A stretch of DNA of 64,000 bases from Strigamia acuminata (taxonomy: Eukaryota > Arthropoda > Chilopoda > Geophilomorpha > Linotaeniidae). The stretch is taken from positions 4,046,259-4,110,258 of the forward strand of contig OX442320.1 of the NCBI GenBank assembly GCA_949358305.1. The letters are read 5' to 3'. Position numbers and translations under genes: made by a program. Numbering within the stretch: the first letter of the stretch is position 1; each line of letters opens with the position of its first letter. Positions 3,546 to 55,971 of this stretch are shown piece after piece. The notes under the pieces were generated by a model. It was not told the DNA's origin. It searched no databases and worked only from the letters and a program-made list of their open reading frames with translations.

Positions 3546-3632
3546 ATGGCTTATGAACGTCGCAAAAGCATAACTAGCTCAAGTGTGCACATGCAACAGT
3601 TTACTATTCATTCTGAATAAAACTTATCTCAG

Positions 3633-22139: not shown

Positions 22140-22440
22140 AGTGAGATCAAATTTTATAAATGGATATTTTAGAATTTTATAAATGGATGTTTTAAATTTT
22201 TATAAATGGATATTTTAAAATTTTATAAATGGATATTTTAAAATTAAAATTTTATAAATGGATATTTTAAAATTGTATAAATGTATATTTTAAAATTTTA
22301 CAAATCCATATTTTAAAATTTTACAAATCCATATTTTAAAATTTTATGAATGGATATTTTATAATTTTATAAATGGATATTTTAAATTTTTATAAATGTA
22401 TATTTTTAAATTTTATAAATGGATCTTACAGGATGTTACA
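22140..22440. repeat. A/T satellite, 23-bp units (block A copy)
   Basis: About a dozen units like ATTTTATAAATGGATATTTT in tandem with a few substitutions. The same unit forms the large array at 26510-28617 and 37011-37510. Confidence 0.9.
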
Positions 22441-26326: not shown

Positions 26327-26509
26327 TTTCAGTGTTGAGTTCTTTACTGTGTGAAATATAAATTTCATCTGAATTTAGATTTGCAAACGTCGGCAATATA
26401 TAGTCTATATACAACAATACCGGCTTAATTATTTATAATTGCAATTTTTAATTGCATATTAAAATTATAAATAACTTAGAATTAGTCACCTATGCAATCA
26501 GAGTGAGAT

Positions 26510-28617
26510 AAAATTTTATAAATGGATATTTTAGAATTTTATAAATGGATATTTTAAAATTTTTTAAATGGATATTTTAAAATTTTATAAATGGATGTTA
26601 GAATTTTATAAATGGGTATTTTAAAATTTTATAAATGGATATTTTAGAATTTTATAAATGGATATTTTAAATTTTTATAAATGTACGGAGTTTATTTTAA
26701 AATTTTACAAATTTTTATTTTAAAATTTTATAAATGGATATTTTAAAATTTTATAAATGTATATATTTTAAAATTTTATAAATGTATATATTTTAAAATT
26801 TTTAAAATGTATACTTTAATATTTTATAAATGAATATTTTAAAATTTTTTAAATGGATATTTTAAAATTTTATAAATGGATATGTTAGAATTTTATAAAT
26901 GGGTATTTTAAAATTTTATAAATGGATCTTTTAGAATTTTATAAATGGATATTTTAGAATTTTATAAATGGATATTTTAAAATTTTTTAAATGGAATTTT
27001 AAAATTTTATAAATGGATGTGTTAGAATTTTAAAAATGGGTATTTTAAAATTTTATAAATGGATATTTTAGAATTTTATAAATGGATATTTTAGAATTTT
27101 ATAAATGGATATTTTAAATTTTTATAAATGGATATTTTAAATTTTTATAAATGGATATTTTAAATTTTTATAAATGTACGGAGTATATTTTAAAATTTTA
27201 CAAATTCATATTTTAAAATTTTATAAATGGATATTTTTAAATTTTATAAATGTATATATTTTAAAATTTTAAAAATGCATACCGGTACTTTAATATTTTA
27301 TAAATGGATATTTTAGAATTATATAAACAGATATTTTAGAATTTTATTAATGAATACTTTAAAACTTTATTGCAATCAGAGTGAGATCAAATTTTATAAA
27401 TGAATATTTTAGAATTTTATAAATGGATATTTTAAAATTTTATAAATGGATATTTTAATATTTTATAAATGGATATTTTAGAATTATACAAATAGATATT
27501 TTAAAATTTTATAAATGAATACTTTAAAACTTTATTGCAATTTTTAATTGCATCTTAAAATTAAAAAAAAACTTAGAATTAGTCACCGTATGCAATCAGA
27601 GTGAGATCAAATTTTATAAATGAATATTTTAGAACTTTATAAATGGATATTTTAAAATTTTATAAATGAATATTTTAAAATTTTATAAATGTATACTTTA
27701 AAATTTTACAAATTCATATTTTAAAATTTTATAAATGGATATTTTAGAATTTTATATATGTATATATTTTAAAATTTTATAAATGGATATTTTAAAATTT
27801 TATAAATGGATATTTTAGAATTTTATATATGTATATATTTTAAAATTTTAAAAATGGATATTTTAAAATTTTATAAATGGATATGTTAGAATTTTATAAA
27901 TGGGTATTTTAAAATTTTATAAATGGATATTTTAGAATTTTATATATGTATATATTTTAAAATTAAAAAAATGGATATTTTAAAATTTTATAAATTGATG
28001 TTAGAATTTTATAAATGTATTTTAAAATTTTATAAATGGATATTTTAGAATTATATAAATAGATATTTTGAAATTTTATTAATGAATACTTTAAAACTTT
28101 ATTGCAATTTTTAATTGAAAAAAAAAAAAAAAAAAAATTAAAAGAAAACTTAGAATTAGTCACCGTGTGCAATCAGAGTGAGATCAAATTTTATAAATGA
28201 ATATTTTAAAATTTTATAAATGGATATTTTAAAATTTTATAAATAGATATTTTAAAATTTTATAAATGGATATTTTAGAATTTTATAAGTGTATATATTT
28301 TAAAATTTAAAAAATGGGTATTTTAAAATTTTATAAATAGATATTTTAGAATTTTATAATTGAATATTTTAATATTTCATAAATGAATATTTTAGAATTA
28401 TTTCAATAAATATTTTGAAATTTTATTAATGAATACTTTAAAACTTTATTGCAATTTTTAATTGAAAAAAAAAAAAAAAAAAAAATTAAAAGAAAACTTA
28501 GAATTAGTCACCGTGTGCAATCAGAGTGAGATCAAATTTTATAAATGAATATTTTAAAATTTTATAAATGGATATTTTAAAATTTTATAAATAGATATTT
28601 TAAAATTTTATAAATGG
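26510..28617. repeat. Large A/T satellite array (23-bp units, higher-order spacers)
   Basis: Dozens of units of TTTATAAATGGATATTTTAA with variants (gtatatatt, gaatacttt). At intervals (about 27540, 28100, 28450) a non-satellite spacer recurs: gcaatttttaattg, then acttagaattagtcaccg and gcaatcagagtgagatc. This gives a higher-order structure. The array continues after the gypsy insertion at 37011. Confidence 0.92.
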
Positions 28618-28621
28618 ATAT

Positions 28622-29193
28622 TGTCACGTGTACGAACCGTGCCAATTGATGCGCGATTCGTAGCACGTAATTCGAATCATTATTAGGTTAAATGTTGCTA
28701 AATTTCGGCCACAGATGGCGCTGACGGCTTGGACTCCGTCATCGCCATGTGATGGACCGATCAATTCAATTATGGGGTTTATGGCAGATTTGCTATAAAT
28801 AAGGAGCCCGCACTAAGACAGGTCTCTAATCACTTTTGCTTTTCAGAACTAGAGAGTCTGATGTCGCCTCAATAAAGAGCGCGGCTGATGACTATAAAAC
28901 CAATTTAATTACATCGCAATTAAGTTATCACACAGTAGTTCATAACCCAATTAATAAAGGTTGTACATTTGACAAATGTAAGAAGTGACAATTTATCCAA
29001 AATAACATTCTGACCTGTTGAGAATAAATGTATCTGAATTTATAAGGGATCGAACAAACTTTGTTTGTCCGGTCAAATAAATCTGAATTGAATTTAAAGC
29101 ATAAATGAATCTCATTCTTTCCTTTCACACTCACTAAACCCCAATTAAACATAGTTGCGTGGAGACCTGATTAGGCCCGGATTCCACGTAACA
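28622..29193 (+). repeat. Ty3/gypsy 5' LTR
   Basis: Starts TGTCACGTGTACGAACCGTG and ends CACGTAACA. It contains a TATAAATA box (at about 28793) and AATAAA signals. A CTCF-like CCACAGATGGCGCTG sits at 28709-28723. Confidence 0.93.
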
Positions 29194-36438: not shown

Positions 36439-37010
36439 TGTCACGTGTACGAACCGTGCCAATTGATGCGCGATTCGTAGCACGTAATTCGAATCATTAT
36501 TAGGTTAAATGTTGCTAAATTTCGGCCACAGATGGCGCTGACGGCTTGGACTCCGTCATCGCCATGTGATGGACCGATCAATTCAATTATGGGGTTTATG
36601 GCAGATTTGCTATAAATAAGGAGCCCGCACTAAGACAGGTCTCTAATCACTTTTGCTTTTCAGAACTAGAGAGTCTGATGTCGCCTCAATAAAGAGCGCG
36701 GCTGATGACTATAAAACCAATTTAATTACATCGCAATTAAGTTATCACACAGTAGTTCATAACCCAATTAATAAAGGTTGTACATTTGACAAATGTAAGA
36801 AGTGACAATTTATCCAAAATAACATTCTGACCTGTTGAGAATAAATGTATCTGAATTTATAAGGGATCGAACAAACTTTGTTTGTCCGGTCAAATAAATC
36901 TGAATTGAATTTAAAGCATAAATGAATCTCATTCTTTCCTTTCACACTCACTAAACCCCAATTAAACATAGTTGCGTGGAGACCTGATTAGGCCCGGATT
37001 CCACGTAACA
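36439..37010 (+). repeat. Ty3/gypsy 3' LTR
   Basis: 572 bp, read as identical to the 5' LTR; followed by the ATAT duplication and the resumed satellite. Confidence 0.93.
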
Positions 37011-37510
37011 ATATTTTAGAATTTTATAAGTGTATATATTTTAAAATTTAAAAAATGGGTATTTTAAAATTTTATAAATAGATATTTTAGAATTTTATAA
37101 TTGAATATTTTAATATTTCATAAATGAATATTTTAGAATTATTTCAATAAATATTTTGAAATTTTATTAATGAATACTTTAAAACTTTATTGCAATTTTT
37201 AATTGCATCTTGAAATTTTAAAAAACTTAGAATTAGTCACTGTATGCAATCAGAGTGAGATCAAATTTTATAAATGAATATTTTAGAATTTTATAAACGG
37301 ATTTTTTAAAATTTCATAAATGGATATTTTAAAATTTTATAAATGGATATTTTAAAATTTTATAAATGGATATTTTAAATTTTTATAAATTAACATTTTA
37401 AATTTTTATAAATTAACATTTTAAATTTTTATAAATTAACATTTTAAATTTTTATAAATTAACATTTTAAATTTTTATAAATTAACATTTTTAAATTTTA
37501 TAAATGAATA
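37011..37510. repeat. A/T satellite array, right part
   Basis: Direct continuation of the array interrupted at 28621. Near 37380-37500 there is a homogeneous run of five 23-bp units of the variant AAATTTTTATAAATTAACAT. Confidence 0.9.
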
Positions 37511-38887
37511 TTTTAAAAATTTTATTTGCATTTTAAAATTATTAATAACTTAAAATTAGTCATCGTATACAATCTGAGTGGGAACGCCTTATTGACCTCA
37601 GATATTATGCAAAAGTAATTAATTACTCAAACAAAAACAAATACGGAGTATATATTTATTTTATATTTTATATATTATATATATTATTTTATATACTGCC
37701 TTTTTTATACAATTAAATATTCTTTTTTATATATAATATACTGTATAAAATATATAATATAAAAATAAAAATAAAATAAAAATTCATCCTTTTATTTATT
37801 TTATTTCTTCAAGCAAAACAAAAGCAACAAAAACCAAAAGCTGATCAAGTTTCTCAACATACAGGGTGAACAAAAAGTCTATCACTATAGGAAATATTTC
37901 TGAAAGTGCTGACAATTCATCTGATCTAATGATGGTAAAGTATTAAAGTTGGGTGGGGCAATCTTTTGGTGACCCAAAATTTGACCTTGGAATGTTCCTT
38001 CAAGGTCATTGGGAAATTATCTCGGAAACCGTTAGAGATAGACAGAAATTTCCAATTGTAAACTTGTAGAGCAACATTTTTTTAGTCTAAAAATGACTAA
38101 TTCTCAAATCTTTTGTACTAAAATTTTTTAAGAAAATTGCAATTGAATGAAAGACTAACTATATTTTTAGACTTCTAAACCTGATGTTTAGAAAGTCTCA
38201 TGAAACGGTTCTGTCTGTCTGTCCGTCTGTCCGTCCGTCCGTCCGTCCGTCCGTCGTCAACGATTCCGCAAAAACTATAGCAGCTAGAGCAAAACGGACA
38301 ACGGCATTAAATTCAGCATGCTTATATTATTATTGTAAGGTATTTTCAGATTTCTTGGACCTCCGGTTGAATTAATAAACCGGTTTTAGTGCACTTTTAG
38401 CCGTCTAATAATACTACTTCCGTCCTGCACAGGAAGTTGTAACATTGTACTAGCGCCACCTGGCGGATCCCGTGAGCCATACGTTGCGATACGTTTTCCG
38501 CGCGATTTATTTCCCGATTGTAGCAAACCCGGATGCAACAATTCCGCAGCATATCATTTCAAATTTTGGTGGGATTTTGTTTGTTGTTGCTTTATATTGG
38601 CAAAAAAAAAAAATTTTTTTTTTTTTAAATTACTTTATTTTCTTTTATTTCGGTGTTTTATTTAGGGACAAAAGGACAGGGTTTAGAAGTCTAATATGTA
38701 ATGCTTCCCTGCATTACAAATCCCAGCTTGTAATAAACATGGGAGTTACTGTATATACCCAAAATACATGGAAACGTCACATGGACGTTTCCGGTCAGTT
38801 TGACCAATGGGAATGATTGACATCCAACACACCCACTCAACACGGAACGTATGTTTCGTATTGATGCGGGAATGTTTGACATTCCAA
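37511..38887. other. Non-coding: block B end, mariner-like fragment, microsatellite
   Basis: 37660-37735 matches block C (55920 and 60326) and shows its empty insertion site. CAGGGTGAAC at about 37863 starts a mariner-like fragment inserted at a TA relative to 60528. A tctg/tccg microsatellite runs about 38210-38262. A CTCF-like AGCGCCACCTGGCGG lies at 38452-38466. No gene seen. Confidence 0.55.
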
Positions 38888-39479: not shown

Positions 39480-39766
39480 TTCGGGCTGTGTTCTCATCCG
39501 CGCGCGCCGCATCCGCGTCTCCCTTATCCGCTTGATCCCCCTTCCACGCTCCCTAAAACGCGGCTTTCTTATCCGCGTGGTTCTTCTAGAACCGCCCCAA
39601 TCCCGCTCGGTTTCTAATCCGCGCGGAATATAATTAATAAAAAAAAGGAAATTCCGTTTGGTTTCTAATCCGCGCGGTATTTAATTACTAAAAAAATTTA
39701 AATTCCGCTCGGTGTCTAATCCGCGCCGTATGTAATAAATAAATAAATTAAATTAATCTTAAAACT
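39480..39766. repeat. Cluster of ATCCGCG motifs with three 52-bp units
   Basis: ATCCGCG or close variants occur about nine times in about 250 bp of otherwise A/T-rich sequence. The last part is three tandem units of about 52 bp (TCGGTTTCTAATCCGCGCGG + A/T filler). The cluster directly abuts the 1711-bp terminal repeat. It may be the subterminal region of a DNA transposon whose other end I cannot find. Confidence 0.5.
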
Positions 39767-41477
39767 TGTGACGATGACCTTTCGATGACGCTATCCGCTC
39801 AAAATGTGTATTTTGGCATAACAAGCTAGTCTATCTATTCAGTAGTTGAGAGATAGGATTGACAAAACCTAAAGTGTGAACTGGGTAAAATAATGACACA
39901 TGCGGTTATCAAGACATAACATATTTATTGATATCTAAATATAATCACCGTAAAGTGATTATATTAATCAATTTGCAGGAAATACAATTATACAGTAACT
40001 ATGCCGACAATTGGCTGCATAAATGGGTCGATTAACTATACATACAGTCGCCTAAACGGCGCTATGATAATATCAAGTCGGCTGCATCGGATCGGTAAGA
40101 TGTCGTCTGAATCGGTTGATTATTGGGTCCTAATTGTACATCGGGGTCTGGTTCAAATCTGTAATGAAAAGGTTAGTATCCGAGGACTTCCGGTTGACTG
40201 TATCTGCATCGCCACAAACTTGGGGCGGTTATTGGTTTAAATGGCTTGTGAGAGCCATTTACCAATTGACCTCTTATAAATGTTTTACGACATTTATAAT
40301 TGGTGTGATACGTCAAATGGTTCTTCATACGAGAGTAAACTGTTGCGAGTTTACAATCATAACTTCTGGTTCCGTGTAATGGATGTATTTATTAGAGTAT
40401 TACTTTTCAGTAAATACTCGTAATAATTCTGCTTACATAAAGTTGGCAATTTAGCTACACATTTACTGGCAAGTAAATGCTAATGTAGCTAGTCTTCAGT
40501 TTTTTACAGTTCTGGAAGAAGTATCCGTGTTTATGCACAATGCTGAGTTGTGACATAAACCAGTTGGGGATTTAATCTAACTAAACTTTTCCGAGTTTAG
40601 TTATTTCAACCCTAATGTTACATTTTTGACACGCTGTTCGGCAGCCGTGGTTTACTGTAACTGGCAGGCCTTGTGGAACACTTGTTGAAATATATCCGGC
40701 CCGACGGGATTCTTACTACTCATCGCCGCGACCTGATCTGCTCACGGCCACACAGCCGTCATCGGGCACCCGGACATGGAGGCATCATATCACCCATCTC
40801 CACGTCAAGTGTACGCCGTATGTATGTTCTCATAGGCCCGCAGAATAAAAGGCATTGGCTGCGCAATCAACAGGCAAGCTTGTGTTTGCGCAATCAACAT
40901 AACACCGAAGTAGTAGAATGGGCTCAAGAAAACATATAGTCAAAATATCTGGTCAAGAGCGAGTTACTTCCTGTTGCAAGGAAATATATACTCATGGTGG
41001 ACAATAGCTTGACCATTGCTCCAATGAGAGCAGTGGTCCCCTGAATCCCTCCAATCACTGGTCAGAGTGATGGGATACTCAGGACACATTTTCAGTCCAG
41101 GTGGTCAACAAGAACAAGCCACAGCTCTCTGCTAGGTCGGGACCGGAACTGGATAGCGAGGAACACTTTTGGATTAAGTCTTTCAACTTGATCCGCGGGG
41201 GTCCACGCTTGGAGCAGGTGTGAGGGGGAGATTTAATCCCCTAAACCTAGTTTTGAGGTAACTTTGCAAAATTGCCACAACACAACATAATATCTATATT
41301 TATTTCCATAAATATGGGATAAACTTGGTTCTTTGCTTGGAAATCACATAAAAGTTCCGTTTTATGTGATTTTACATCAAATGACAAATTCTGTTCGAAT
41401 TTGCCGCTTTTGGTCGTCAGCGCCATCTATTGGCGAAATTGTCGTTATATCGAGTGGAAAAGGCCGTGACCGTCATA
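39767..41477. repeat. Left 1711-bp terminal repeat, hairpin-rich
   Basis: Perfect hairpins at 39938-39965 (11-bp stem), 40238-40261 (9), 40274-40299 (9), 40335-40354 (7), 40460-40479 (8, with an 8-bp outer stem), 40579-40602 (9) and 41341-41372 (13). Most loops are 6 nt. A GC-richer core (about 40640-41250) has a frame of 88 codons kept in both copies but with no recognised domain. A CTCF-like GCGCCATCTATTGGC sits at 41420-41435. Confidence 0.85.
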
Positions 41478-41943
41478 CATCTCCCTTAATCACTGGAATT
41501 ATGTAAATAATTACACGTGATTTTCGCCGATAATCGTCTCGATATACGACACTATTCATCGTGGATCAGCAAATGTTACGTATCTTGTAAAAGATATCTA
41601 ACAATGCAAATATAATAAAGAGTGAGGATTATTCATTTCAAATTATATTTTTGACCATTAATAATTTATTCAATCATTAACCGTTCGGGTGACTTCGGAG
41701 ATGAATTGTTTTCCTGAATTTATACAAATTCAGAAAAACAACCAATCGTGAAAACTGGCATCGAAAGTATTTAATAATATATTTTGTACAAAATATAAAT
41801 TAAATCACGTCTTTAGAATATTCTTAATAATTTTAAGATTATTAATAAATGTTCAAAAATCCGTTTTATTCTTAGAGATCAATCATCAAGTCGACATTCA
41901 AAAAAATTAATAATAATTTTTTACAATTATTAGTAAATGTTCA
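41478..41943. other. Interior of composite: hairpin field, left part
   Basis: No gene. Further hairpins at 41708-41739 (imperfect 14 bp), 41779-41796 (18-nt perfect palindrome), 41824-41845 and 41911-41932 (8-bp stems, 6-nt loops). Confidence 0.7.
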
Positions 41944-42842
41944 AACGGATGTTTCATTTCTTTTAATATTTCGATTAAAAATATTAAAATGAAACCTGGT
42001 CAAATTTCTTAGTTTATTTCTCACAAAGAAAGTAAACACAAGAAATTAATCTTCTAATTTTCAAAAGAAAATTTGCTGTTTCTTTTCTTTTAATATTTTG
42101 ATTAAAAATATTAAAAAGAAACCTGGTCAAATTTCTTAGTTTATTTCTCAGAAAAGAAAGTAAACACAAGAAATTAATCTTTTAATTTTCAAAAGAAAAT
42201 TTGCTGTTTCATTTCTTTTAATATTTCGATTAAAAATATTAAAAAGAAACCTGGTCAAATTTCTTAGTTTATTTCTCAGAAAAGAAAGTAAACATAAGAA
42301 ATTAATCTTCTAATTTTTAAAAGAAAATTTGCTGTTTCATTTCTTTTAATATTTCGATTAAAAATATTAAAAAGAAACCTGGTCAAATTTCTTAGTTTAT
42401 TTCTCAGAAAAGAAAGTAAACATAAGAAATTAATCTTCTAATTTTTAAAAGAAAATTTGCCGTTTCATTTCTTTTAATATTTCGATTAAAAATATTAAAA
42501 AGAAACCTGGTCAAATTTCTTAGTTTATTTCTCAGAAAAGAAAGTAAACACAAGAAATTAATCTTCTAATTTTCAACAGAAAATTTGCTGTTTCCTTTCT
42601 TTTAATATTTTGATTAAAAATATTAAAAAGTAACCTGGTCAAATTTCTTAGTTTATTTCTCAGAAAAGAAAGTAAACACAAGAAATTAATCTTCTAATTT
42701 TCAAAAGAAAATTTGCTGTTTCCTTTCTTTTAATATTTCGATTAAAAATACTAAAAAGAAATCTGGTCAAATTTCTTAGTTTATTTCTCATAAAAGAAAG
42801 TAAACACAAGAAATTAATCTTCTAATTTTCAAAAGAAAATTG
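41944..42842. repeat. 128-bp tandem array, left part (seven units)
   Basis: Units start about every 128 bp (41944, 42072, 42200, 42328, 42456, 42584, 42711). Each holds three hairpins: TTTTAATATTT/AAATATTAAAA, GTTTATTTCT/AGAAAGTAAAC (loop cagaaa) and AATTTTC/GAAAATT. The array is interrupted by a copia insertion and resumes at 47803. Confidence 0.92.
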
Positions 42843-43049
42843 TGTTATGAATCAAGTAAAAACGGTTGAAGTTTAATCAAGTATAAAGCAACCTCACTGT
42901 TCTACATCAAGTGAAAGAGTGGGGAAAAACACAGGAAGGATGTTCACTCCATATATGGTAGGAGTGTCACCACAGGATATAAAAAACTCAAACTACACTG
43001 ATTACACAATGACATCAAGTGGTGATTTTCCACATCAAATATCCCAACA
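42843..43049 (-). repeat. Copia 3' LTR
   Basis: 207 bp, TGTTATGAATCAAG...CCCAACA as read on the plus strand; identical to the right-hand copy as far as I can see. Confidence 0.92.
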
Positions 43050-43150
43050 AATTCCCCCAAAATCAACAATTCGATTTCATCACAAAAACACTTCTCAAAA
43101 ACACAATTATATAAAAACAATCAATATGAACACTGCACACAATAAAGTCA

Positions 43151-46100
43151 TTATTCCCCCACAGTCTTTAGTCCTAATGCTTCTAGTATTCCATTCAGTG
43201 CAGGTCCGGCTAAAGGCTCCGTTAAAAAATCTGCTAACATGTCCTCGCTTGGGACATGTTCCACGATAACGTTTCCATCCTCGATCTCTTGTTTGATGAA
43301 ATGCACTTTTCGATTCAAATGCTTGGTCCTAGTCTTCTGTGCACCGCCTCGCAACAGTTTTACTGCGTTCAAACTATTGCAGTGCATTGTTGTGGTCTCT
43401 CCGTCGTCGACTTCTCCATTTAGTCCAATCGCGAGTTGTTTCAACCAAATTAATTCTCGCACTCCTTCGGTCAGCGCCAAGAGCTCACTCTCTGTACTCG
43501 ACATCGCGACTATCGCTTGTTTCTGGCACTTCCAGTTAATGATCGAATTCCCGTCCATCGCAATAAATCCCGAAAACGATCTTGCGTTCGCCGTCCGGTC
43601 CCAACTCGCATCCGAGTAGCCGTGAATGTGGCTCTCTTCTCTTCCGTAACTGAGCTTGTAATCGGCCGTCCCTTTCAAGTATCTCAGCACGCGCTTCAAT
43701 GCGGTAAAATGGATCTTTCGTGGGTCCTTGTTATATTGAGATAACAGGCTCATCGAGAAACTCAGGTCTGGTCTCGTGTGTGTGGCAAGGTACATCATCT
43801 TGCCCAGCAGTTCTTGATACTGTGTTGCGTCAACTTTCTCACTTTCTTCAAATTCATCCAAATTTTGATTGGGGTTCACTGGGGTTATTGCCGCATTGCA
43901 TCCTTCCAATCCCTCGCTCTCCACCAATCTTTTGATGTATCCGCCTTGGTGGATGTTGATTCTTCCATTTTTGTATTCGACCTGGATTCCTAAAATGTAT
44001 TCCAGTCTGCCTATGCTCACGAATTCTATTTCTTCTTTCATTTTTGACATAAGTTCCGTCTCAAATTCATCTGTGGATGCCAAAGATAAGTCATCGTCCA
44101 CGTACACGCCTAGGAACATAAAGTTGCCATCAACAAAAATCACATAAAGGCATGGGTCCTCTGGCGATGGTTTAAATCTGATTTTCTTCAATGTCTTATC
44201 CAACATTTCAAACCAACATCTCCCTGCCTGTTTTAATCCATAGATGCTCTTAATTAATTGACAAACATGTCCTTTTCCTTTCTCAATGTATCCCTCTGGT
44301 TGCATCATAAATATAACTTCTTTCAGCTTGCCGTGAAGGTATGCGGCTTTGACATCATGTTGCTTTAATGGTCTGTTAATTTTTGCTGCTACATTAATCA
44401 GCATTCTGAGAGTCTCTATTCGTATAACCGGGGCAAAGGTCATCTCGTAATCGTCCCCGAATTTCTGCGAGTATCCAGTGGCTACTAGTCTTGCTCGGAA
44501 TCTTTCCGGTTCCCCCTCGGAATTTAACTTCACTTTATAAACCCACTTGGATTTCACCGCCTTCTTTCCTTTTGGTAATTTTCCAATTTTCCACACTCCG
44601 TGTTGTTTCATCGAGCTCATCTCGTCATCCATCGCGGCCTTCCAGTCTGTCGCGTGATGGGAGTTTGTTGCTTCGTGGAAATTTTTCGGCGTTAGAATTT
44701 CTTCTACTAGTAATGCCATTTGCTTTGTCTTAATTCTCTCTGATCTTCGTGCTCCTTGGGCGACCAACTGTCGTTCACGTTCCTCTCTTTGCATCGTGTC
44801 TGCGACCAATTTCATTTCTCTGGTCACTCCTGCCGGTCGTCCTCTCTGTGGTGGTTCGGCACGTTCATCTTGATCGTCATTTTCTTCCACGTTGTCCTCT
44901 GGTTCATTCGTTTCATCTTCTTCTTCATTTATCTCGTTTTGCTCTTCATCCTCGGCATCGTCTGATTCGTCTTCATTTTCTTCACAGTTCAGATCGATTT
45001 TAACTGTCTCCTCTTCATTGTCTTGGATTTCCCCATTCACCAAGTCTGCGCCCGTTTTACTTTCGTCAAATTTTACATCGATTTCTTCGCTTATCGAGTC
45101 GTTTTCTGGGTGGTAAATCCGGTACGCTTTCCTCATATTCGAGTAGCCAATAAATATTGCTTTTTCCGCCTTGGGATCCAATTTCTTTCGTTTGTGATCC
45201 TTGATTAGCACATATGCTATACATCCAAATCTTCTCAAATATTTTAAATTTGGCTTCCTCCCAAACCATATCTCAAATGGTGTGCGTCCATGGACTGACG
45301 ATTTGCACCTGTTGCGGATGTGCGCCACTGTCGATGCGCACTCTGCCCAGAAAATCTTTGGCAGTTTGCAATCTTTCAATATTGCTCTCAACATCTCAAG
45401 TATTGTCCGGTTCGCGCGTTCCGCGACGCCATTGCTAGCCGGGTTAAATGCTGTGGTCAGCTGGTGTTCAATGCCTCTTTTTGTCGTCCATTCTTTCATA
45501 CTTTTGGACAAGAACTCGCCGCCATTGTCGCTCCTTAATTTTTTCAGCTTCTTGTCGGTCTGTCTTTCCATCCCAATGATAAGTTCTGTTAACTTCTCCT
45601 TCGCGTCGCTTTTTGCATTTAATGTCTTAATCATTAGCATCCTACTCCAATCGTCCACTACAGTCATTATATAGTTTGCACCTCCTCGAGATTCGGGTCC
45701 AATTGGTCCAATTAGATCGATGTGCCATAATTCCATGATGCTGGACGATTGTCGGTCTGTTACCGATTTGTGCGACGTCTTTTTCATCTTTCCCGCGATG
45801 CATGGTTCACACACGGCGCCACCTTTGCTGCTAATTTCTATGCCGTATGCTAGTCCTTCATTTTTCATCTCTCTCAGGGTGTTGTAATTTAAATGTCCCA
45901 ATCTCACGTGCCAATTGTTGTCTTTTTCCTCCGCTTTATAAGACTTCTCTTTTTCTTTTATGTTTGCCTTCAACACAAACATGTCTCCTTTTCTTGGCAC
46001 CGTCATAACTTGTTCTCCATTCTCATCGTTAATTGTTGCGCTCGTTTTGGAGAATGTGACTTTTAGTCCATTATCGACAATTTTCGATACTGACAACAAA

Positions 46101-46594
46101 TTGCTTCCAATTTGCGGCACGCACAACACTTTCTTCAATCTGGAATTTTTTCCGTCGTGTTCGAGCACAATCTCGCCCGTTCCAATTGACTTCATACTTT
46201 TGCCTTTCTTCGCCATTCCGATATTCTTTTCATCCTCATCAAATGTGTCGAAATGTTTTGCATCCAGCGCCGTCATGTGGCTTGTCGCTCCGGAATCCAA
46301 CACCCAATTGTTTTCTTCGTTTGGTTCTTCATTTGTTTCTTCATCATTGGTGTTTTCATCCATTTCGTACGTCATAAGTGTAAATTCGGGCTTTTCCTCG
46401 TACGCCATCATTGATATTTCGCTTTTTCCTCTGACCTCGCTGACCGCCTCTGCCTCGTCCACGTCCTCTTGAGTCGCCACTTCTAAATTCTCGTTTGGGT
46501 TTCGAACAATCTTTCGATAAGTGGCCAAACTCCTGGCAGTTGTAACATTTTGCCTCACTGTAGCATTCTCTTGCCATGTGCCCTCCACGGCCAC
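43151..46594 (-). CDS. Ty1/copia pol polyprotein
   Basis: About 1147 codons. Order: aspartic protease ([11 protein letters not shown]), GAG-pre-integrase ([13 protein letters not shown]...CEPCIAGK), integrase DDE ([29 protein letters not shown]), acidic linker, RT ([33 protein letters not shown]), RNase H ([35 protein letters not shown]). No internal stops. Domain order protease-integrase-RT-RNase H is diagnostic of copia. The frame is +1 relative to gag and overlaps it for about 239 nt, so the start is uncertain: expression probably needs a frameshift near the end of gag. Confidence 0.94.
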
Positions 46595-47285
46595 AGTTGA
46601 AGCATGTGCGCTTTGGTTTCTGTCCCTTCTCTCGTGTTTTTAGTGCAGCCTCGTTTGTTGTCGTATTTTTCTCTTCTTTTCTAGTTGAAATTCGACCTTC
46701 CTCCATTTTTAGTATGTTGCGGATTTTCGACATGTCCATATTGGCTTGCACCTCAATTGCGCGCACATTCGCATCAAATTCTCGTCGCAATCCCTTCGTC
46801 ACGTAAAACTGGCTCTCGTAGTCATCAATATTTTTGCCAAGTTTTGCACAGCGGTTGATTATCGCTTCTGCCCTGTTCATGTAGGTGTCTACATCTTCCT
46901 TGCTGTTCATCTTCAGCTGTGTCAACTCGCAGGCACTTCTCATTTGCAATTCTTGGGTTTTTGCCGCCATATTTGTTTTTACCAAATCCCAAAGTGCCTT
47001 TGCACCTTTTGTGTTTGAATACTTCAAAACTTGTGGTGCCGTCATTGTGCTGATCATCGTGAAGTGGGCCGCCGCGTTTTTATCGTCCCATTCGTCCCAA
47101 GTTTTCTCTTTTGCGGCAAAATCCGCTTCTCCTTGAACTCCACGTTGCGGTTCGGCTCCTACAATTACTTCTTTCCACAATTTCTTGGCCCTGAGGACTC
47201 CCTCCACTCTCGATTCCCATAGGAAATAGTTTGCATCGTTTAGTGGCTCAATGTTAGCCAAACTCCAATTACCGGTGTCGCTCAT
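46356..47285 (-). CDS. Ty1/copia gag
   Basis: The start is taken at ATG 47285 ([20 protein letters not shown]), which fits copia gag N-termini; the frame is open to 47360. It contains [20 protein letters not shown] (UBN2-type gag), then two CCHC knuckles ([29 protein letters not shown]) and an [16 protein letters not shown] basic tail. It is adjacent to the primer site and overlaps pol at its 3' end. Confidence 0.93.
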
Positions 47286-47580
47286 CTTTGTTGGTTTCGT
47301 CTCAATTTGCACGTATTGTTCAACTTTTTTCTCCGTCTCGGTTCTGTGGCACAATCTCAATATTGTTTAATTCACCTCGAATCGAATTGTTGCTCACAGT
47401 CTTTGTTAAAGTTGTTTCTCGTCGTCTCGTTTCGTGCTCTTCAAGATGGCGCGGCGTTGCTCTCGATGTTCGCCCCGTGGTTGCTCTCAATGTCGCCTCG
47501 AATCTGCTCAAAACTTCTTGTTTTTCGGTCTCAATACCGTTTTTCTTCTATTCAGTGTGGCTGATGATTGTTCAACCTTC

Positions 47581-47593
47581 CTCTCTGCTACCA
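47581..47593 (-). promoter_or_regulatory. Copia primer-binding site
   Basis: Minus strand TGGTAGCAGAGAG, two bases inside the 5' LTR. The first 11 bases complement the CTCTGCTACCA end of initiator tRNA-Met. Confidence 0.75.
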
Positions 47594-47595
47594 TT

Positions 47596-47802
47596 TGTTA
47601 TGAATCAAGTAAAAACGGTTGAAGTTTAATCAAGTATAAAGCAACCTCACTGTTCTACATCAAGTGAAAGAGTGGGGAAAAACACAGGAAGGATGTTCAC
47701 TCCATATATGGTAGGAGTGTCACCACAGGATATAAAAAACTCAAACTACACTGATTACACAATGACATCAAGTGGTGATTTTCCACATCAAATATCCCAA
47801 CA
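47596..47802 (-). repeat. Copia 5' LTR
   Basis: 207 bp, matching 42843-43049; AATTG duplication follows. Confidence 0.92.
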
Positions 47803-48175
47803 AATTGCTGTTTCATTTCTTTTAATATTTCGATTAAAAATACTAAAAAGAAATCTGGTCAAATTTCTTAGTTTATTTCTCATAAAAGAAAGTAAACACA
47901 AGAAATTAATCTTCAAATTTTCAAAAGAAAATTGCTGTTTCATTTCTTTTAATATTTCGATTAAAAATACTAAAAAGAAATCTGGTCAAATTTCTTAGTT
48001 TATTTCTCATAAAAGAAAGTAAACACAAGAAATTAATCTTCTAATTTTCAAAAGAAAATTGCTGTTTCATTTGTTTTAATATTTCGATTAAAAATACTAA
48101 AAAGAAATCTGGTCAAATTTCTTAGTTTATTTCTCAGAAAAGAAAGTAAACACAAGAAATTAATCTTCTAATTAG
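47803..48175. repeat. 128-bp tandem array, right part (about three units)
   Basis: Continuation of the interrupted array with units at about 47803, 47930 and 48058, ending at cttctaatt where unrelated sequence starts. Confidence 0.9.
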
Positions 48176-51100
48176 CAGTTTGATGTTTTCTTGGGAGGAG
48201 AAAATGTAACTGTCCAGTTGAAGTTTTTCCCCTTTTTGCTCCTATCTTCGAATGACTGCACCTCAGGCGACGGTAGGTGTCTGTCTGACGGTTAATTGTC
48301 TTCACGTCCACTGGGAGTTCGTATTTCTTCACATTGTAAGGCAATTGCAAGACAAACATACTTTATGTAAAGAAAATTCGCCGTTTTTTGTTACTTCTAA
48401 TATTTCGATTGAAAATAATAAAAAGAAAACCTTGTCAAATTGCTTACAAGTAAGTCTGATTTTCAGCAAACTTAAAATTATTTCTAGATTTTTTGAGAAA
48501 CTAGAGCATAATTCATTTCCAGTAGATTTATTTTAAGTGTTATAAAAAGTTTCATTCTTATATACACCTCTTTATTTCCAAATTTTTTGAGAAAGGGTTA
48601 TAAAGAGTTTCATTCTTTACCCCTTCCCCCTTTTTCTTCAGAATTATCAGATTCTGTAGAAATATCAAAAATGAAACTCAGTTAAACTTCTTAGTTTAAT
48701 TTTCAACAAAATAAACATAAAAAATTTAATTCCCAAAATTTTCGGGAGAAAATTATCGTTTTGTTGTCTTTAGTACTTCTGTCGAAATACTAAAGTCAGA
48801 CCTTATTTCCACATTTTTATTAATCACATTCCTGATTAACAAAACGTTGTTTTGATTCTTAAAATGTTTCTTGTGAGAGAAAACATTATAAAAAGGTTGA
48901 AGGTTGGGTGGATGAAAAGTGACCTTTTGGGGTCAACTTAGTCATTCATCCCCCTTTGCTGGGGTTCCCTCTAAGTTTCCATTGTTTCCAACAAATCTTG
49001 TCGGTGCGTCATAATAATTTTTATTCAAAAAAAAAAATGACTCTTCAATTTTACTTTTATTTCTTGCGAAATAATAAATAAAGTACGGTAGTTTCTAATC
49101 AATACGAATAATTCCGGGAACAATGGTTAATTATTATTTTGATTAGAAATAATAATAACATGGTGATCTGGCAGCTATATTTCCCTGGTTTTAAAGAGAA
49201 TTTCCTCTAGTTTGTGAGTCGTTTGCTCCTAGAGGGAGAAAGAGTACAAACTTCGAAAAAAAACTCTACTTTGAACCAGAATCAAATTTGTATCAACTTT
49301 CTTGTAAAAAGAATTTCCTCCAGTTTGTGAAATCGTTTGCTCCTAGAGGGAGAAAGAGCACAAACTTCGAAAAACTCCACCTTACCAAAAAGTTGATTTC
49401 ACGTTAAGTCTTAGTTAATGTGAATAAATTTGACAGGAAGAAGTTTGATTAATATTTCGATTAGAAATAATAATAACACAGTGGTGTTGTAGTTATATTT
49501 TTCTTGTAAAAGAGAAAATACAACAACAAACAATGGTTATAATTTTCTCGCGAAAGAAAAATTACAACACAAAATGTCAAAATGCTCAAATATGAGTTTT
49601 CCAACTTCTATCCAAGTTGTAGAATCTTCAGTTGGCTTTCTTAGTCAAACTTTTTATTCAAAAGAAATTGACTCAAGAAAATCTTCAATTTATTTATATT
49701 TCTCGCGAAATAATAAATAAAGTACGGTAGCCTAATTATTACATTTTTTGTGCAAAAAAATGCAACTAGACGGTTGTTACGAATAAATTCGTGGCAGTGT
49801 TTAATTAATATTTCGAATGGAAATAATAACAACACGGTGAATTGTCATCATATTTTTCTTGTCAAAGAGAAAATACAACAAACAAAACAGTGGTTCTAAA
49901 TTTCTTGTTAAAGAAAAATTAAAACATCAAAACGTTGGTTATAATTTTCTTGTTAGAGAAAAATTAAAACGCAAAACGTCGGTCTAAACTAAAATGGCGA
50001 CAGTACGCCCTCAAAAATAATTTTCCAACATCTGAGTAATATTTCCTTAGCTTAATCTTTTTCGAGAATTAAACTTTTGAAATTTATTAACTCCAAATTT
50101 ACGGTTTTCCCCTGGCTAAATAACTCTTGAAGTTATAAACTAGTGAGAATTCTACATTAATATTTCTACCAAAATATTAAGTAACAAAACCGCTGCAAAG
50201 TTCCATGGTTAATTTTTTTGTATAAAAAGTAACCCTTGAATTCTTATTTCTTGATTTTTCTTAAAATATTTTTTGCAAAAATATCTCAAGGGAATATTTG
50301 TGGAAATACAGTTTAATTAGGTTTATTTTCTTGTAGGAAAATAAACTCTACAATCTCGCTTTTTCTTGATGCTGAAAAATGGTGTCACATCTAACTGGAA
50401 GTGACTACCATAAAACTTCCAAATCGTTCGCGATCACTTATTACAATGTCCAAACGCTCAGGGTTAGATTTATTGTTAGATAAATTCTTTTCCCCTTGTT
50501 TTCTTGCTTCGAATAAATCGCGTCGGTTTTGCCATAATAATTTTTGTTCAAAATTAAATATGAACAGTGCAAATTCAAACATCAGCGATAGTTCGACCAC
50601 CGGTGGAGGTGGAGGAACAAGCCGTCTTGGTGAAGTCGAATACGTACGTCGTTCGGGAGTGGAGTTTCGCAACTCTGCCCTCGAATTATTCGCTACAGGT
50701 GAAGTTCGTTGGTCCTGTCGGATCGGTGTACCGACTCGGGGTTGCTGCACATCCGTACGTTCAGTCGACGGAGCCTCGTGGGACTTTGGAGTCGATGCAC
50801 GTGGCGCCGAAGTTCGTTCTCGTCTCGGTGAAGACGATTTATCTACGGGTAATGGCATTGGAGCATCGAACAACAACAAAAATTGGCGATAGGTTCGGTG
50901 TGAGATTACGTACCGTTTAGTACGTAACCGACAAAATCGAACAACAACAAAAATTGGCGATAGTTCGGTGTTAAAACGTGTACTGTGGGGTACACGAAAA
51001 ACAACAAGAAAATAACGCCCAAAAAATAGATTGGAGTACTGAGGATTTTAATACAACACTAGCGCGGAGAAACAGTCACGCCTAAATTAAAACTAGAGAA

Positions 51101-52303
51101 AGAATAGTACAACTGATTCTTTAAACTTGGTGTGGGCAAAACACACTTAAACTACAAAAATGAAATACACTTTTTATATTAAACTAGCGCTTAGGAAGGT
51201 GCGCTTTAAACTACAATGTTTTAACAAAATTACACTTAACTTTACGGCTTTTTCGGATGCAAAATGGTCCAAACGAACAAGGTGGTCACGGTCCAAAATG
51301 GTGGTCAAGAGACGTCCAGTCAGTGTGGATGCAAGAATGCAAGTGGTCTTCACACTTCCCAAAAAATGGAATTTTTGGGTTAATCCGTTCAGTGGGATTG
51401 GACGAATGAAAAAAATGACACATTTGACGTGTGTCACTCATTCATCACCCAACAATGCATTTCCTTTTTTGGATATGCCACCCACTGAGTTTTGGTCCAA
51501 ATTCTTTTTCGAGAATTTGAACTTTGCCATTCTTGTCAGCAAGATTAACCTGTTTTTTAAGGCAAGTCAAAATCGCCTATTCTCCACAGCTGCTTGACAA
51601 TCTCCAGGCTCTTTGTAAAGAGAAAATTGTTTTTATTTCCTTTCGGGAAATAATCACAAAATACTACCATTAGCCACATTTTTGGTGAGAAAATATGACC
51701 TCTTCAGACTACCATCCAAGTGTCGTTAACTTTTCGTACAAAAAGTTAAAGTTCAAGCATTTTGATTAGAAATAACTTAAACAATGGACAGCATCGTGAA
51801 TTCTTCGAGTTGTAGAAACTTCTGCTCGTTTGTCGAGAATCAAAACTTTTTATTTAAAAGACTTGACCCAACAAACGTCTGGCACATTTATTTATATTTT
51901 TCGCGAAATAATAAATAACGTACGGTAGTCTACTTGTTACACATTCTTGTGAGGAAAATGCAACTAGACTCGGGAAACAATGTTCAATCAATATTTCGAT
52001 TAAAATATTAACAACACTGTGAAATTTGTAATTATATTTTTCTTTTTCGAGAGAAAATACAACAAACAAATCAATAATCGTAATTTTCTCGTTAAAGAAA
52101 ATCACAACACGAACAAAACGGTTATAAATTTCTTTTTTAAGAAAATTTACAACACGGACATTTAGTCATAATTTTCTGGTTAGAAAAAATACAACTCAGC
52201 CATAATTTTCTTGGTAAAGAAAAATTACAACAAAAATGTCAAAATTCAAAATTTTACCTAAGTTCACTTTTAGCTTGCAACCTATCTCGGTGGAACCTCC
52301 ACG
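48176..52303. other. Interior of composite: hairpin field, right part
   Basis: No recognised gene. Perfect hairpins at 48820-48839 (7-bp stem), 50157-50180 (9), 50321-50346 (10), 50906-50927 (8), 50977-50996 (7) and 51726-51749 (9), all with 6-nt loops. A degenerate phrase (ataattttct-loop-agaaaaattacaac) recurs many times from 49480 to 50000 and 52020 to 52240. A minus-strand frame (48359-48168) and a GC-richer segment (50391-50892) are open but unrecognised; the latter's minus-strand reading is Ser/Pro/Arg-rich with a PPPPP run. Confidence 0.6.
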
Positions 52304-54014
52304 TGTGACGATGACCTTTCGATGACGCTATCCGCTCAAAATGTGTATTTTGGCATAACAAGCTAGTCTATCTATTCAGTAGTTGAGAGATAAGATTGAC
52401 AAAACCTAAAGTGTGAACCGGGTAAAATAATGACACATGCGGTTATCAAGACATAACATATTTATTGATATCTAAATATAATCACCGTAAAGTGATTATA
52501 TTAATCAATTTGCATGAAATACAATTATACATTGACTATGCCGACAATTGGCCGTATAAATTGGTCGATTAACTATACATACAGTCGCCTAAACGGCGCT
52601 ATGATAATATCACGTCGGCTTCATCGGGTCGGTAAGATGTCGTCTGAATCGGTCGATTACTTGGTCCTAATTGTACATCGGGGTCTGGTTCAAATCTGTA
52701 ATGAAAAGGTTAGTATCCGAGGACTTCCGGTTGACTGTATCTGCATCGCCACAAACTTGGGGCGGTTATTGGTTTAAATGGCTTGTGAGAGCCATTTACC
52801 AATTGACCTCTTATAAATGTTTTAAGACATTTATAATTGGTGTGATACGTCAAATTGGTTCTTCATACGAGAGTAAACTGTTGCGAGTTTACAATCATAA
52901 CTTCTGGTTCCGTGCAATAGATGCATTTATTAGAGTATTACTTTTCAGTAAATACTCGTAATAATTCTGCTTACATAAAGTTGGCAATTTAGCTACACAT
53001 TTACTGGCAAGTAAATGCTAATGTAACTAGTCTTCAGTTTTGTACAGTTCTGGAAGAAGTATCCATGTTTATGCACAATGCTGAGTTGTGACATAAACCA
53101 GTTGGGGATTTAATCTAACTAAACTTTTCCGAGTTTAGTTATTTCAACCCTAATGTTACATTTTCGACACGCTGTTCGGCAGCCGTGGTTTACTGTAACT
53201 GGCAGGCCTTGTGGAACACTTGTTGAATTATATCCGGCCCGACGGGATTCTTACTACTCATCGCCGCGACCTGATCTCCTCACGGCCACACAGCCGTCAT
53301 CGGGCACCCGGACATGGAGGCATCATATCACCCATCTCCACGTCAAGTGTACGCCGTATGTATGTTCTCATAGGCCCGCAGTACAAGGGGCATTGGCTGC
53401 GCAATCAACAGGCAAGCTTGTGTTTGCGCAATCAACATAACACCGAAGTAGTAGAATGGGCTCAAGAAAACATATAGTCAAAATATCTGGTCAAGAGCGA
53501 GCTACTTCCTGTTGCGAGGAAGTATATACTCGGGGAAAACAATAGCTTGGCCATTACTCCAATGAGAGCAATGGTCCTGCAAATCCCCCCAATCACTGGT
53601 CCAAGTGATGGGATACTCAGGACACATTTTCAGTCCAGGTGGTCATCAGGGCAGACCATAGCTCTCTGCTAGGTCGGGACAGGAACTGGATAGCGAGGAA
53701 CACTTTTGGATTAAGTCTTTCAACTTGATCCGCGGGGGTCCACGCTTGGAGCAGGTGCGAGGGGGAGATTTAATCCCCTAGGCCTAGTTTTGGAGTAACT
53801 TTGCAGAGTTACCACAAAACAACCTAATATCCATATTTATTGCCATAAACATAAGATAACGTTGATTCTCTGCCTTAAAATCACATAAAAGTTGTATTTT
53901 ATGTGGTTTTACGTCAAGTGACAAATTCTATTCGAATTTGCCGCTTTTGGTCGTCAGCGCCATCTATTGGCGTAATTTGTCGCTATATCGATGAGCGACT
54001 GCATGATCGTCATA
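52304..54014. repeat. Right 1711-bp terminal repeat, hairpin-rich
   Basis: Direct copy of 39767-41477. The hairpins are retained. In the 13-bp hairpin (about 53879-53910) the loop changed (gttccg to gttgta) and the one stem change makes a G-T pair. Ends next to acttgaattt, the start of block C. Confidence 0.85.
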
Positions 54015-55048
54015 ACTTGAATTTAATTACAGGATGTATGTTCATATGCAAAGTGATATATTACATATACAAGGTGTCCCAAATGAACGAAGCCGGTCAA
54101 ATAACGAAAAGACCATTTGAGTGAGATGAATGAAACAAATGTAGTACTAGTAAACTAAGTGAGGGCATTTCAAAAATGTGAAAAAATTTGACCTCTAACC
54201 TTTTCTTCAAGGTCATTCCAACTCTAACTTTTAAATTAAGACTCATAGAGCAAAATTCTCAATTAAAAAAAGAAAGAGCACCTTCTGTTTAGAATAAAAC
54301 TGCTCATCAAACTTACTCTAACACAATAACAGATAAAATTACGAAAAAAATAAATCATGAAAAAGTCTTGATCTTGGTTTTCTTTTTTGTATTTTTTGAC
54401 TTTTTTGTATTTAATTACTATGCAGTCATGAATTGTTATTAATTTAACTGGTATTTTAAATGATATTTAACAAATAAAAAAAAGAAAAAGTCAAAAAATA
54501 CAAAAAAAAACCAAGATCAAGACTTTTTCATGATTTTTTTCATGATTTTTTTTGGGTATTGGCAAGTGAATGACTTTAAAAATGGCCTTCAAGGTCAAAT
54601 TTGATGACATCATTGGATTGCTCTCAACCAACTTCCTATACGATTGCTTCATCAAAGTTGGCCTAGATGCAATTGCTGAGGAAATATTTGAGGAGAACAG
54701 ACTTTTGGTTCACCCTGTATATTATTATAGTATTTATTTCATTTCATTTTAAATCCATAGAATTAAAAAAAAAATTAATTTTTAATGAAAATTGTAATAA
54801 AAATCTTTAAAAAAAAAAGCGGATGCAAACCGGAAATCAGTAGTGAGACGGAGCGCTGTAATAAAACACGTTTCCGCCGCATCCCGAATGATCGTCCTGA
54901 CCAATCGGCCAAGTGCGAACTGCGAACGTATACATGACGTGTGTGGATTATCGAAATAAATAAAGTTCTTTTGGGTTCAATTAATATTTTTAATATTTCC
55001 AATTTTAATATTTTCAATTACAATTTTCACTTTCGAAAATCATGATCA
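54015..55048. repeat. Start of paralogous block C, with a mariner-like insert
   Basis: 54015-54076 and 54717-54980 match block A (14418-14757). The inserted 54077-54716 has CACCCTG-type ends and a right arm closely matching the fold-back element at 21765-22039, but its left arm is different. Interior poly-T/A inverted repeat. No protein. Confidence 0.7.
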
Positions 55049-55484: not shown

Positions 55485-55971
55485 TTTCAGTGTTGAGTTC
55501 TTTATTGTGTGAAATATAAATTTCATCTGAATTTAGATTTGCAAACGTCGGCAATATATGTAGTCTGTATACAACAATACCGGCTTAATTATTTATAATT
55601 GCAATTTTTAATTGCATCTTAAAATTATAAATAACTTAAAATTAGTCACCATATGCAATCAGAGTGAGATCAAATTGTATAAATGGATATTTTAGAATTG
55701 TATAAATAATTATTTTAAAATTTTATAAATGGATATTTTAAATTTTTATAAATTAACATTTTAAAATTTTATAATTGAATATTTTAAAATTTTATAAATT
55801 AACATTTTAAAATTTTATAATTGAATATTTTAAAAATTTTATATGCATTTTAAAATTATTAATAACTTAAAATTAGTCATCTTATACCGAAAGTAATTAA
55901 TTACTCAAACAAAAACAAATACGGAGTATATATTTATTTTATATTTTATATATTATATATATTATTTTATA
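55485..55971. repeat. Block C peptide upstream region and short A/T satellite
   Basis: Matches 21200-22440 and 26327-26520: peptide promoter region, then a few 23-bp units (55670-55860) and tatatttattttatatttt. No gene. Confidence 0.75.

Follow-up and report, generated by a model that had tools for sequence, protein, structure and literature searches.

Hairpins with a family-dependent commonest loop in Ty3/gypsy-type retrotransposons of the centipede Strigamia acuminata

A stretch of 64,000 nucleotides of Strigamia acuminata (contig OX442320.1, positions 4,046,259 to 4,110,258), referred to here as the window, contains a field of hairpins at 39767-54014. This region is one minus-strand long terminal repeat (LTR) retrotransposon, which is related to a Ty3/gypsy element of approximately 15.5 kb but is itself non-autonomous, and it is split by a nested copia element. 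The hairpins of this element, which defines family A, and of related families in the same genome are of the RNA type: they are concentrated in non-coding sequence in family A, the paired positions covary, the stems in the LTR vary little, and the changes in the stems are biased toward the sense strand. The commonest loop is set by the family, being a tetraloop closed by a wobble pair in family A, a triloop closed by a C-G pair in families B and D, and a plain tetraloop in families C, E, F, and G. It is proposed, with a probability of about one half, that the hairpins are RNA structures kept by selection as dispersed sites for a protein encoded by the element, the likeliest being Gag, and that they would serve packaging.

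The hairpin field and its loop types

The original prediction listed 14 perfect inverted repeats with six-base loops in this region. All 14 are found exactly where they were placed, with perfect stems of 7-13 bp and loops of 6 nt, and the observation that most loops start with C and end with A when read in one orientation is confirmed for 10 of them. Against dinucleotide shuffles of 39767-54014, the region has 41 perfect stems of at least 8 bp with loops of 3-12 nt (3.5 in the shuffles), and 19 hairpins with such stems have a loop of 6 nt (0.4 in the shuffles), overlapping hairpins being counted in both cases. These shuffled controls rule out chance as the cause of the field. Part of the excess of six-base loops is duplication, given that the LTR hairpins are present in both LTRs and that a tandem array of 127/128-bp units repeats some of the others. 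Nonetheless, simple duplication is ruled out as the cause of the field by a single-copy count with stems of at least 7 bp, in which every non-coding segment enters once (a single LTR, a single array unit, and each spacer once) and 24 of the 53 hairpins have a loop of 6 nt against approximately 1.2 expected. The interval that had been proposed stands as a field except for its hairpin-poor middle at 42843-47802, which is the nested copia element (three hairpins versus 2.1 in shuffles) and lies outside the field.

The rest of the window has an excess of hairpins in places, but no peak of loop length of comparable size, in the comparison that had been suggested. Outside 39767-54014 and four satellite stretches, the window holds 17 hairpins with a loop of 6 nt, and only three of these 17 loops have C..A or T..G ends, versus 17 of 24 in family A. 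The hairpin counts are eight versus 4.0 in shuffles at 56-64 kb, ten versus 8.7 in the other gypsy stretch of the window, and eight versus 5.1 in its BEL stretch. Separately, the first 1-15 kb of the window hold 42 hairpins versus 16.3 in shuffles (2.6-fold), with mixed loop lengths and without a comparable peak. Within the window there are no Rfam 15 matches above the gathering score and no tRNA genes found by ARAGORN, and no complementary (kissing) loops were seen in the sense loop set, inspected by eye only.

Loop lengths were compared among families in the LTR and 5' untranslated region (UTR) of one copy per family, using perfect stems of at least 7 bp; all families come from one genome, and for most of them the data stem from one or a few copies. 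The commonest loop is 6 nt in family A (14 of 22 hairpins) and 3 nt in family B (5 of 11), while loops of 4 nt make up 3 of 10 hairpins in C, 4 of 8 in E, 4 of 11 in E2, and 8 of 11 in F. The association of loop length with family (A, B, C, E, and F; loops of 3-6 nt; 46 hairpins) was reached by 1 of 20,000 permutations of the labels. When the spacers are added, loops of 3 nt are found in 9 of 18 hairpins of B and in 8 of 15 of D, and in family G the loop is 4 nt in 6 of 15 hairpins.

Some of these loops also follow sequence rules. On the sense strand, the 24 hexaloops of family A have T..G ends in nine cases and C..A ends in eight, with a pyrimidine at position 1 in 22 and an A at position 4 in 18, the mirror of the latter (T at position 3) occurring in six. 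The pairs U.G and C.A+ are isosteric wobble pairs in the Leontis-Westhof classification, so that a tetraloop with a U.G or C.A wobble as its closing pair is a natural reading of the C....A rule. In the triloops of family B the third base is A in nine of nine on the sense strand and the closing pair is C-G in eight of nine, so that C[NNA]G describes eight of the nine. The tetraloops of family C are CGAA, CTAG, TGAG, and CCAG, those of E and E2 include TATT, TCAT, TACT, CATT, and CATA, and loops starting with A account for five of eight in family F and four of six in family G.

Selection on the hairpins and their putative reader

Matches to the family-A LTR in the genome (44 scored of 492 first-look candidates) gave an alignment of 29 copies, after leaving out one partial LTR match (L035) and the 14 matches of the 44 for which there was no locus. 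In this alignment, a minor allele shared by at least three copies is found in 2 of 172 stem columns versus 227 of 1579 other columns, the hairpins having been picked by their perfection in one copy, which introduces a slight bias. The same comparison gives 11 versus 270 columns for alleles in at least two copies, and 18 versus 377 for those in at least one.

Pairing is also retained when the sequence of the stems changes. Families A and C share one homologous hairpin, which differs by two compensatory pair changes and carries different loops. The LTRs of families F and G are 66.5% identical over 1454 columns, and when the hairpins of F are followed into G, pairing persists at 44 of 47 ungapped stem pairs, as compared with 7-16 of 44-47 after shifting the partner by one to three positions. 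Eight of these pairs changed on both sides and all eight are paired, versus 1.9 expected if the two sides change independently. In the opposite direction, from G to F, 41 of 43 pair and all seven doubly changed pairs are paired, with ten cells gapped given that one hairpin of G has no counterpart. From E2 to E, 51 of 56 pair and six of seven doubly changed pairs are paired, and from E to E2 the values are 29 of 31 and four of six.

One-sided changes in the stems of retained hairpins were counted in six alignments, considering only hairpins that keep at least 70% of Watson-Crick cells in a copy. Among these changes, 20 give G.U, six give A.C, and 14 are of other kinds, in addition to ten changes between Watson-Crick pairs; the two kinds of transitions at unpaired positions are balanced (716 versus 737; Fisher p 0.004). 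A putative function as sense RNA is favored, because G.U exceeds A.C while the unpaired transitions are balanced. Without the filter, G.U and A.C number nine and two in the LTR of family A and four and one in its 5' UTR.

The location of the hairpins can be evaluated in family A, for which an autonomous copy of approximately 15.5 kb lies at C1:58767002-58782496 and shares the LTR and the 5' UTR with the window element. Its interior, read in two pieces from this one copy, encodes gag, a Ty3/gypsy pol, and a third open reading frame (ORF3). In C1:58768700-58779400, RVT_1, RT_RNaseH, and Integrase_H2C2 are found in one reading frame and rve in the next piece, which is the gypsy order, while Gag gives a match to Retrotrans_gag and, just below the cut-off, a zinc knuckle. 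The LTR and 5' UTR of family A have 22 hairpins with perfect stems in 3135 nt (7.0 per kb) versus 2.95 in shuffles. In the coding parts, tested in this family only and in this one autonomous copy, gag has one versus 1.1 and ORF3 none versus 0.5; pol has five versus 1.8, five being also the highest value among 15 shuffles. In a scan that tolerates mismatches, nine hairpins are found in the LTR (seven with a loop of 6 nt), 11 in 52303-50560 (seven with a loop of 6 nt), 14 in 50560-48174, six in the spacer, and five and 15 in the tandem array and 3' UTR. The same scan of the autonomous copy gives one in gag, five and three in the pieces of pol, two in the stretch of ORF3, and two in the 3' UTR. 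The hairpins of family A concentrate in the LTRs, UTR, and spacers.

According to the proposal, the sequence of the stem would matter little provided that pairing holds, and the RNA-binding protein of each family, probably encoded by the element, would recognize the loop on the RNA of that element. Gag would be the likeliest reader, and a selective and cooperative packaging of this RNA into particles the likeliest purpose. Packaging is the work of Gag in LTR elements, and Gag is favored as the reader because of this role and because phage coat proteins prefer different hairpins. The hairpins preferred by the coat proteins of MS2, PP7, and Qbeta differ in structure and loop size, and the PP7 protein tolerates changes of the stem that preserve pairing, in the passages of the source consulted (PMC7952577). 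The non-autonomous copy, which keeps the hairpins of the LTR and 5' UTR and adds a hairpin-rich interior without gag or pol, would fit a packaging parasite. Of the two causes that had been offered for the field, selection by a hairpin-specific protein is the better one, but it would act at the level of RNA and the reader would probably be encoded by the element.

A more specific form of the proposal is tentative, with odds somewhat short of even. In this hairpin-loop code, each family would mark its own RNA dozens of times, using a loop length, a closing pair, and a base rule of its own, and the Gag or ORF3 of the family would read only that mark. If so, families would keep their particles to themselves, non-autonomous copies would cheat by multiplying the mark, and the loop types would evolve together with the part of the reader that binds RNA, as happened with the coat proteins and operator hairpins of RNA phages.

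Several results weigh against these proposals. In the 5' UTR, aligned in six copies, a lower variability of the stems is not evident. Columns with a minor allele, of 180 stem columns versus 1321 others, number 7 versus 134, 4 versus 36, and 1 versus 10 for alleles in at least one, two, and three copies. From E2 to the copy L063, 48 of 56 stem pairs still pair, but only two of five doubly changed pairs are paired. The unfiltered pairwise ratios of G.U to A.C are weak (7/5 for C and C91, 6/3 for C and C95, 8/7 for E and E3, and 9/7 for E and E2), these counts including non-homologous chance hairpins, and from G to F there are no G.U and two A.C changes. The folding z-scores are equally low in gag and pol (-1.02 and -1.40) and in the LTR and UTR (-1.24 and -1.25), and are not lower in the sense than in the antisense strand for B, C, E2, and F; those of the 5' UTR and spacer of family A lean to the sense strand. 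The excess of total hairpins is only moderate in C (10 versus 2.3 in shuffles) and E (8 versus 3.05), and the loop rules of C, E, F, and G rest on four to eight hairpins each. In family A, position 5 of the hexaloop is A or C in 23 of 24, a rule that is only partly directional because the mirror pattern, with G or T at position 2, also holds in 18 of 24. The putative role in binding and packaging is itself deduced from sequence, and ORF3 is another candidate for the reader. Near the end of the LTR, TATA-like and AATAAA motifs are seen by eye, which would place most of the LTR hairpins in U3, at the 3' end of the RNA. The mapped packaging region of Ty1 is near the 5' end, unlike these U3 hairpins, according to the part of the 2016 review consulted (PMC4974528).

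The reader might be ORF3 rather than Gag, with a role in RNA export, stability, or translation, although this is considered unlikely. The third reading frame follows pol at L039:873-2258 on the minus strand in family A, where it comes after the hairpin-rich spacer, and on the plus strand at L042:1065-2753 in B, L053:1377-3029 in E2, and L046:1594-2688 in D, in which the frame is broken. The proteins of B, D, and E2 are 27-35% identical to that of A with the Cys/His positions aligned, and their core is zinc-ribbon-like (CxxC..CxNC..CxxC..H). This conservation speaks for ORF3 as reader, as does the fact that it has no Pfam match above the cut-off, the best being Anti-TRAP with an E-value of 0.0076 in B. 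Against it, a copy of family C has hairpins, yet no ORF3 is present in the 857 nt that were read ahead of its 3' LTR, the 1.3 kb between the pol match and this stretch being unread and taken as the rest of pol.

It is equally doubtful that the hairpins face the host, as RNA structures that act on stability, translation, or small-RNA pathways and are read by host factors or by none. The spread of the hairpins over UTRs, spacers, and LTR and the conservation of the LTR stems would suit such a role, but a single host should impose a single type of loop, and the families differ within the same genome, with the loops of family B holding a sequence rule.

A purely mutational origin appears a little less probable still. 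It corresponds to the fold-back synthesis with a fixed loop that had been suggested for the field: template switching or fold-back by reverse transcriptase would make and re-perfect hairpins without function, with a loop size set by the enzyme. Perfect stems and multibase compensatory changes can arise through template switching, in the portion of the source consulted (PMC8794818); enzymes specific to each family could give a loop length specific to each family, and the non-coding location fits tolerance of such hairpins. Functionless hairpins of this kind would be expected to have stems as variable as their surroundings and to be symmetric between strands, and neither is seen in the family-A LTRs and in the filtered counts, in which shared variants are far rarer in the stems and G.U exceeds A.C. 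The rules followed by some loops and closing pairs, the different stems of homologous hairpins between families, and the dependence of the commonest loop length on the family also speak against fold-back. Template switching may be the source of new stems; alone, it does not explain the low stem variation, the loop rules, or the wobble bias. A function in DNA, as cruciform-like sites bound in double- or single-stranded form, is very improbable, since the equivalence of C....A and T....G loops on the two strands and the failure of folding z-scores to separate strands in B, C, E2, and F are countered by the sense-strand excess of G.U in retained stems and by loop positions that are directional (A at position 4 in family A and NNA in the B triloops).

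Anatomy of the element, its relatives and other features

The window copy has LTRs, a primer binding site, a polypurine tract, and a target site duplication. The 3' LTR (39767-41479) and the 5' LTR (52304-54014), both on the minus strand, are direct repeats that are 94.6% identical over 1709 aligned columns, with ends uncertain by one or two bases. A probable target site duplication of 4 bp, ACTT, is found at 39764-39767, where it shares one base with the assigned LTR end, and at 54015-54018. The tRNA-type primer binding site TGGAGGTTCCACCGAGAT lies on the minus strand at 52284-52301, just inside the right LTR, and a short polypurine tract, recognized from its sequence, adjoins the 3' LTR at 41480-41487 on the same strand. 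The element is placed on the minus strand because the primer site is inside the right LTR and the purine tract inside the left one. The primer site resembles the 3' end of tRNA-Gln; one tRNA-Gln-like pattern gave no match in the genome in the search for the host tRNA, and a second gave 355 matches, the single locus read among them being the primer site of family G and not a tRNA.

On the inner side of the 5' LTR, the 5' UTR (50879-52303, minus strand) comprises approximately the first 1426 internal bases, which match many places in the genome at 96-98%, one of them adjoining the LTR of the autonomous copy. It is followed by a non-coding, hairpin-rich interior (48174-50878, minus strand) found in ten other places of the genome, nine at 98% and one at 96%, and absent from the autonomous interior that was read, except for 83 nt that are 72% like its gag region. 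The tandem array of hairpins, also on the minus strand, is split by the copia insertion into a part of 127-bp units at 47803-48173 and a part of 128-bp units at 41950-42841. The copia element (42843-47802, minus strand) has LTRs of 207 bp (42843-43049 and 47596-47802), a target site duplication AATTG, and gag and pol reading frames. A Pfam scan of four reading frames of the outer element found no families, and thus no gag or pol domain. Large non-autonomous LTR elements of the large retrotransposon derivative (LARD) type have long LTRs and a long non-coding interior, and the window element likewise has long LTRs, a long interior without gag or pol, and multiple copies.

The hairpins of the field that are listed individually here are those with loops of 6 nt. 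In the LTR they are found at 39938-39965 (cgtaaa; second copy at 52475-52502), 40238-40261 (tgtgag; 52775-52798), 40274-40299 (52811-52836), 40335-40354 (gttgcg; 52873-52892), 40578-40603 (tttccg; 53116-53141), and 41341-41372 (gttccg; 53882-53905), and a further one at 53503-53524 is listed with a perfect stem in the 5' LTR only. The homologue of the hairpin at 40238-40261 in family C has a tetraloop and the two compensatory changes already described. The hairpin at 40274-40299, which was absent from the original prediction, has one pair that occurs as A-T, G.U, and G-C among copies, and that at 40578-40603 is identical in 29 of 29 aligned LTR copies. The 3' UTR contributes 41824-41845 (tttaag) and 41911-41932 (ttttac), and the interior 48820-48839 (cattcc), 50157-50180 (ctacca), and 50321-50346 (ttgtag). 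In the 5' UTR they lie at 50906-50927 (cgttta), 50977-50996 (tgtggg), 51358-51379, 51498-51519, 51726-51749 (cgtaca), 51990-52009 (cgatta), and 52083-52102.

The relatives were recognized from pol and from the primer site. Of 4249 first-look candidates in a search with the family-A pol, 50 were scored, 33 of them matching at 96-100% and 17 at 70-72%, and searches with E, C, and B gave pol identities of 90% between E2 and E, 72-73% between C and E, and 68% between B and E. With at most a few changes, the primer site stands at the LTR end of B, C, D, E, E2, and F; in C91, the stretch fetched lacks the primer-site word. Extended by 8 bases, the primer-site pattern has 248 exact matches in the genome, and the reversed control has none. 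Twelve of these loci, all of the TTCC type, were fetched, having been chosen by eye among the TTCC-type matches listed (of 248) and away from copies already known; eight belong to the E group, three to the new family F (one being only partly alike), and one to B. Family G was found from the matches of the second tRNA-Gln-like pattern. Families F and G are known here from the LTR and UTR only, and gag was read in family A only.

Some further observations concern these relatives. Copies of family G have two or three tandem primer sites 235 bp apart, with three in L070 (C1:1010700-1014300), and the 16-base core of this primer site has 355 matches in the genome. E2 looks like a recent burst, given that at least 43 of 48 scored pol matches are at 90% to E with nearly equal scores; they have no inner stop, mostly a frame of 1435 codons, and lie on contigs C1, C3, C4, and others. 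A relative of family C holds, at L055:2406-2863, a cluster of long hairpins on TTTGGTACCA units without counterpart in C, with loops mostly of 5 nt (TATGT, TATAT, ATATA, and ACATA).

Elsewhere in the window, an A/T-rich satellite of 23 bp, AAATTTTATAAATGGATATTTTA, occurs at four places (22149-22424, 26509-28622, 37010-37525, and 55672-55843). An inverted repeat with arms of 385 nt, 97% complementary and 101 nt apart, follows pieces of a gypsy-type integrase at 2489-3359, and a reading frame of 282 amino acids at 3583-4431 looks, by eye, like part of an ion channel of the DEG/ENaC type. At the start of contig C1 there is a TTAGG array, a telomere repeat of the arthropod kind.

Comparison with known systems

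How LTR retrotransposons choose their own RNA for packaging is unsettled, and several related families with a commonest loop each would make this question directly testable. They would also offer a natural setting in which to study how an RNA-binding protein and its sites evolve together, and a simple sequence signature for finding further elements of this kind. A literature search for fields of hairpins or stem-loops with loop rules in LTR elements returned nothing comparable, subscription papers being thinly covered.

With the Ty3/gypsy elements (Metaviridae), the families described here share gag, the order protease, reverse transcriptase, RNase H, and integrase, the LTRs, a tRNA-type primer site, and a polypurine tract; they differ in the hairpin fields with family-specific loops and in the zinc-ribbon-like third reading frame. 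In the sections consulted of the 2016 review, the structure of Ty3 RNA and its Gag sites are undefined, and the Gag binding sites in the RNA of Ty1 and Ty3 are not precisely defined, with scattered sites that may contribute (PMC4974528). The stem-loops of the retroviral R region and of the Sire LTR are likewise LTR stem-loops with both arms conserved, but in the part of the source consulted they are single structures near R or the polypurine tract (PMC3601003), whereas here there are many hairpins with one commonest loop per family. The likeness to LARD-type elements lies in the long LTRs, the long non-coding interior, and the several similar copies. The window element differs in its hairpin-rich interior with the 127/128-bp array of hairpins, and in having an autonomous partner that shares its LTR and 5' UTR in the genome. 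Template-switch hairpins, as far as the portion consulted describes them (PMC8794818), also have perfect stems and compensatory changes, but the sense-strand wobble bias, the loop rules, and the low stem variation point here to selection.

A close idea is that of the dispersed packaging signals of RNA viruses (for example MS2, satellite tobacco necrosis virus, hepatitis B virus, and enteroviruses). In this established idea, many stem-loops share a loop feature and are recognized by one reader protein (PMC6281560). Multiple stem-loops with a common loop feature are likewise present in the element, and their predicted presence in its RNA follows from the sequence. The differences are that the hairpins described here belong to an LTR retrotransposon, lie mostly in non-coding sequence, have long perfect stems, and have a reader that is putative.

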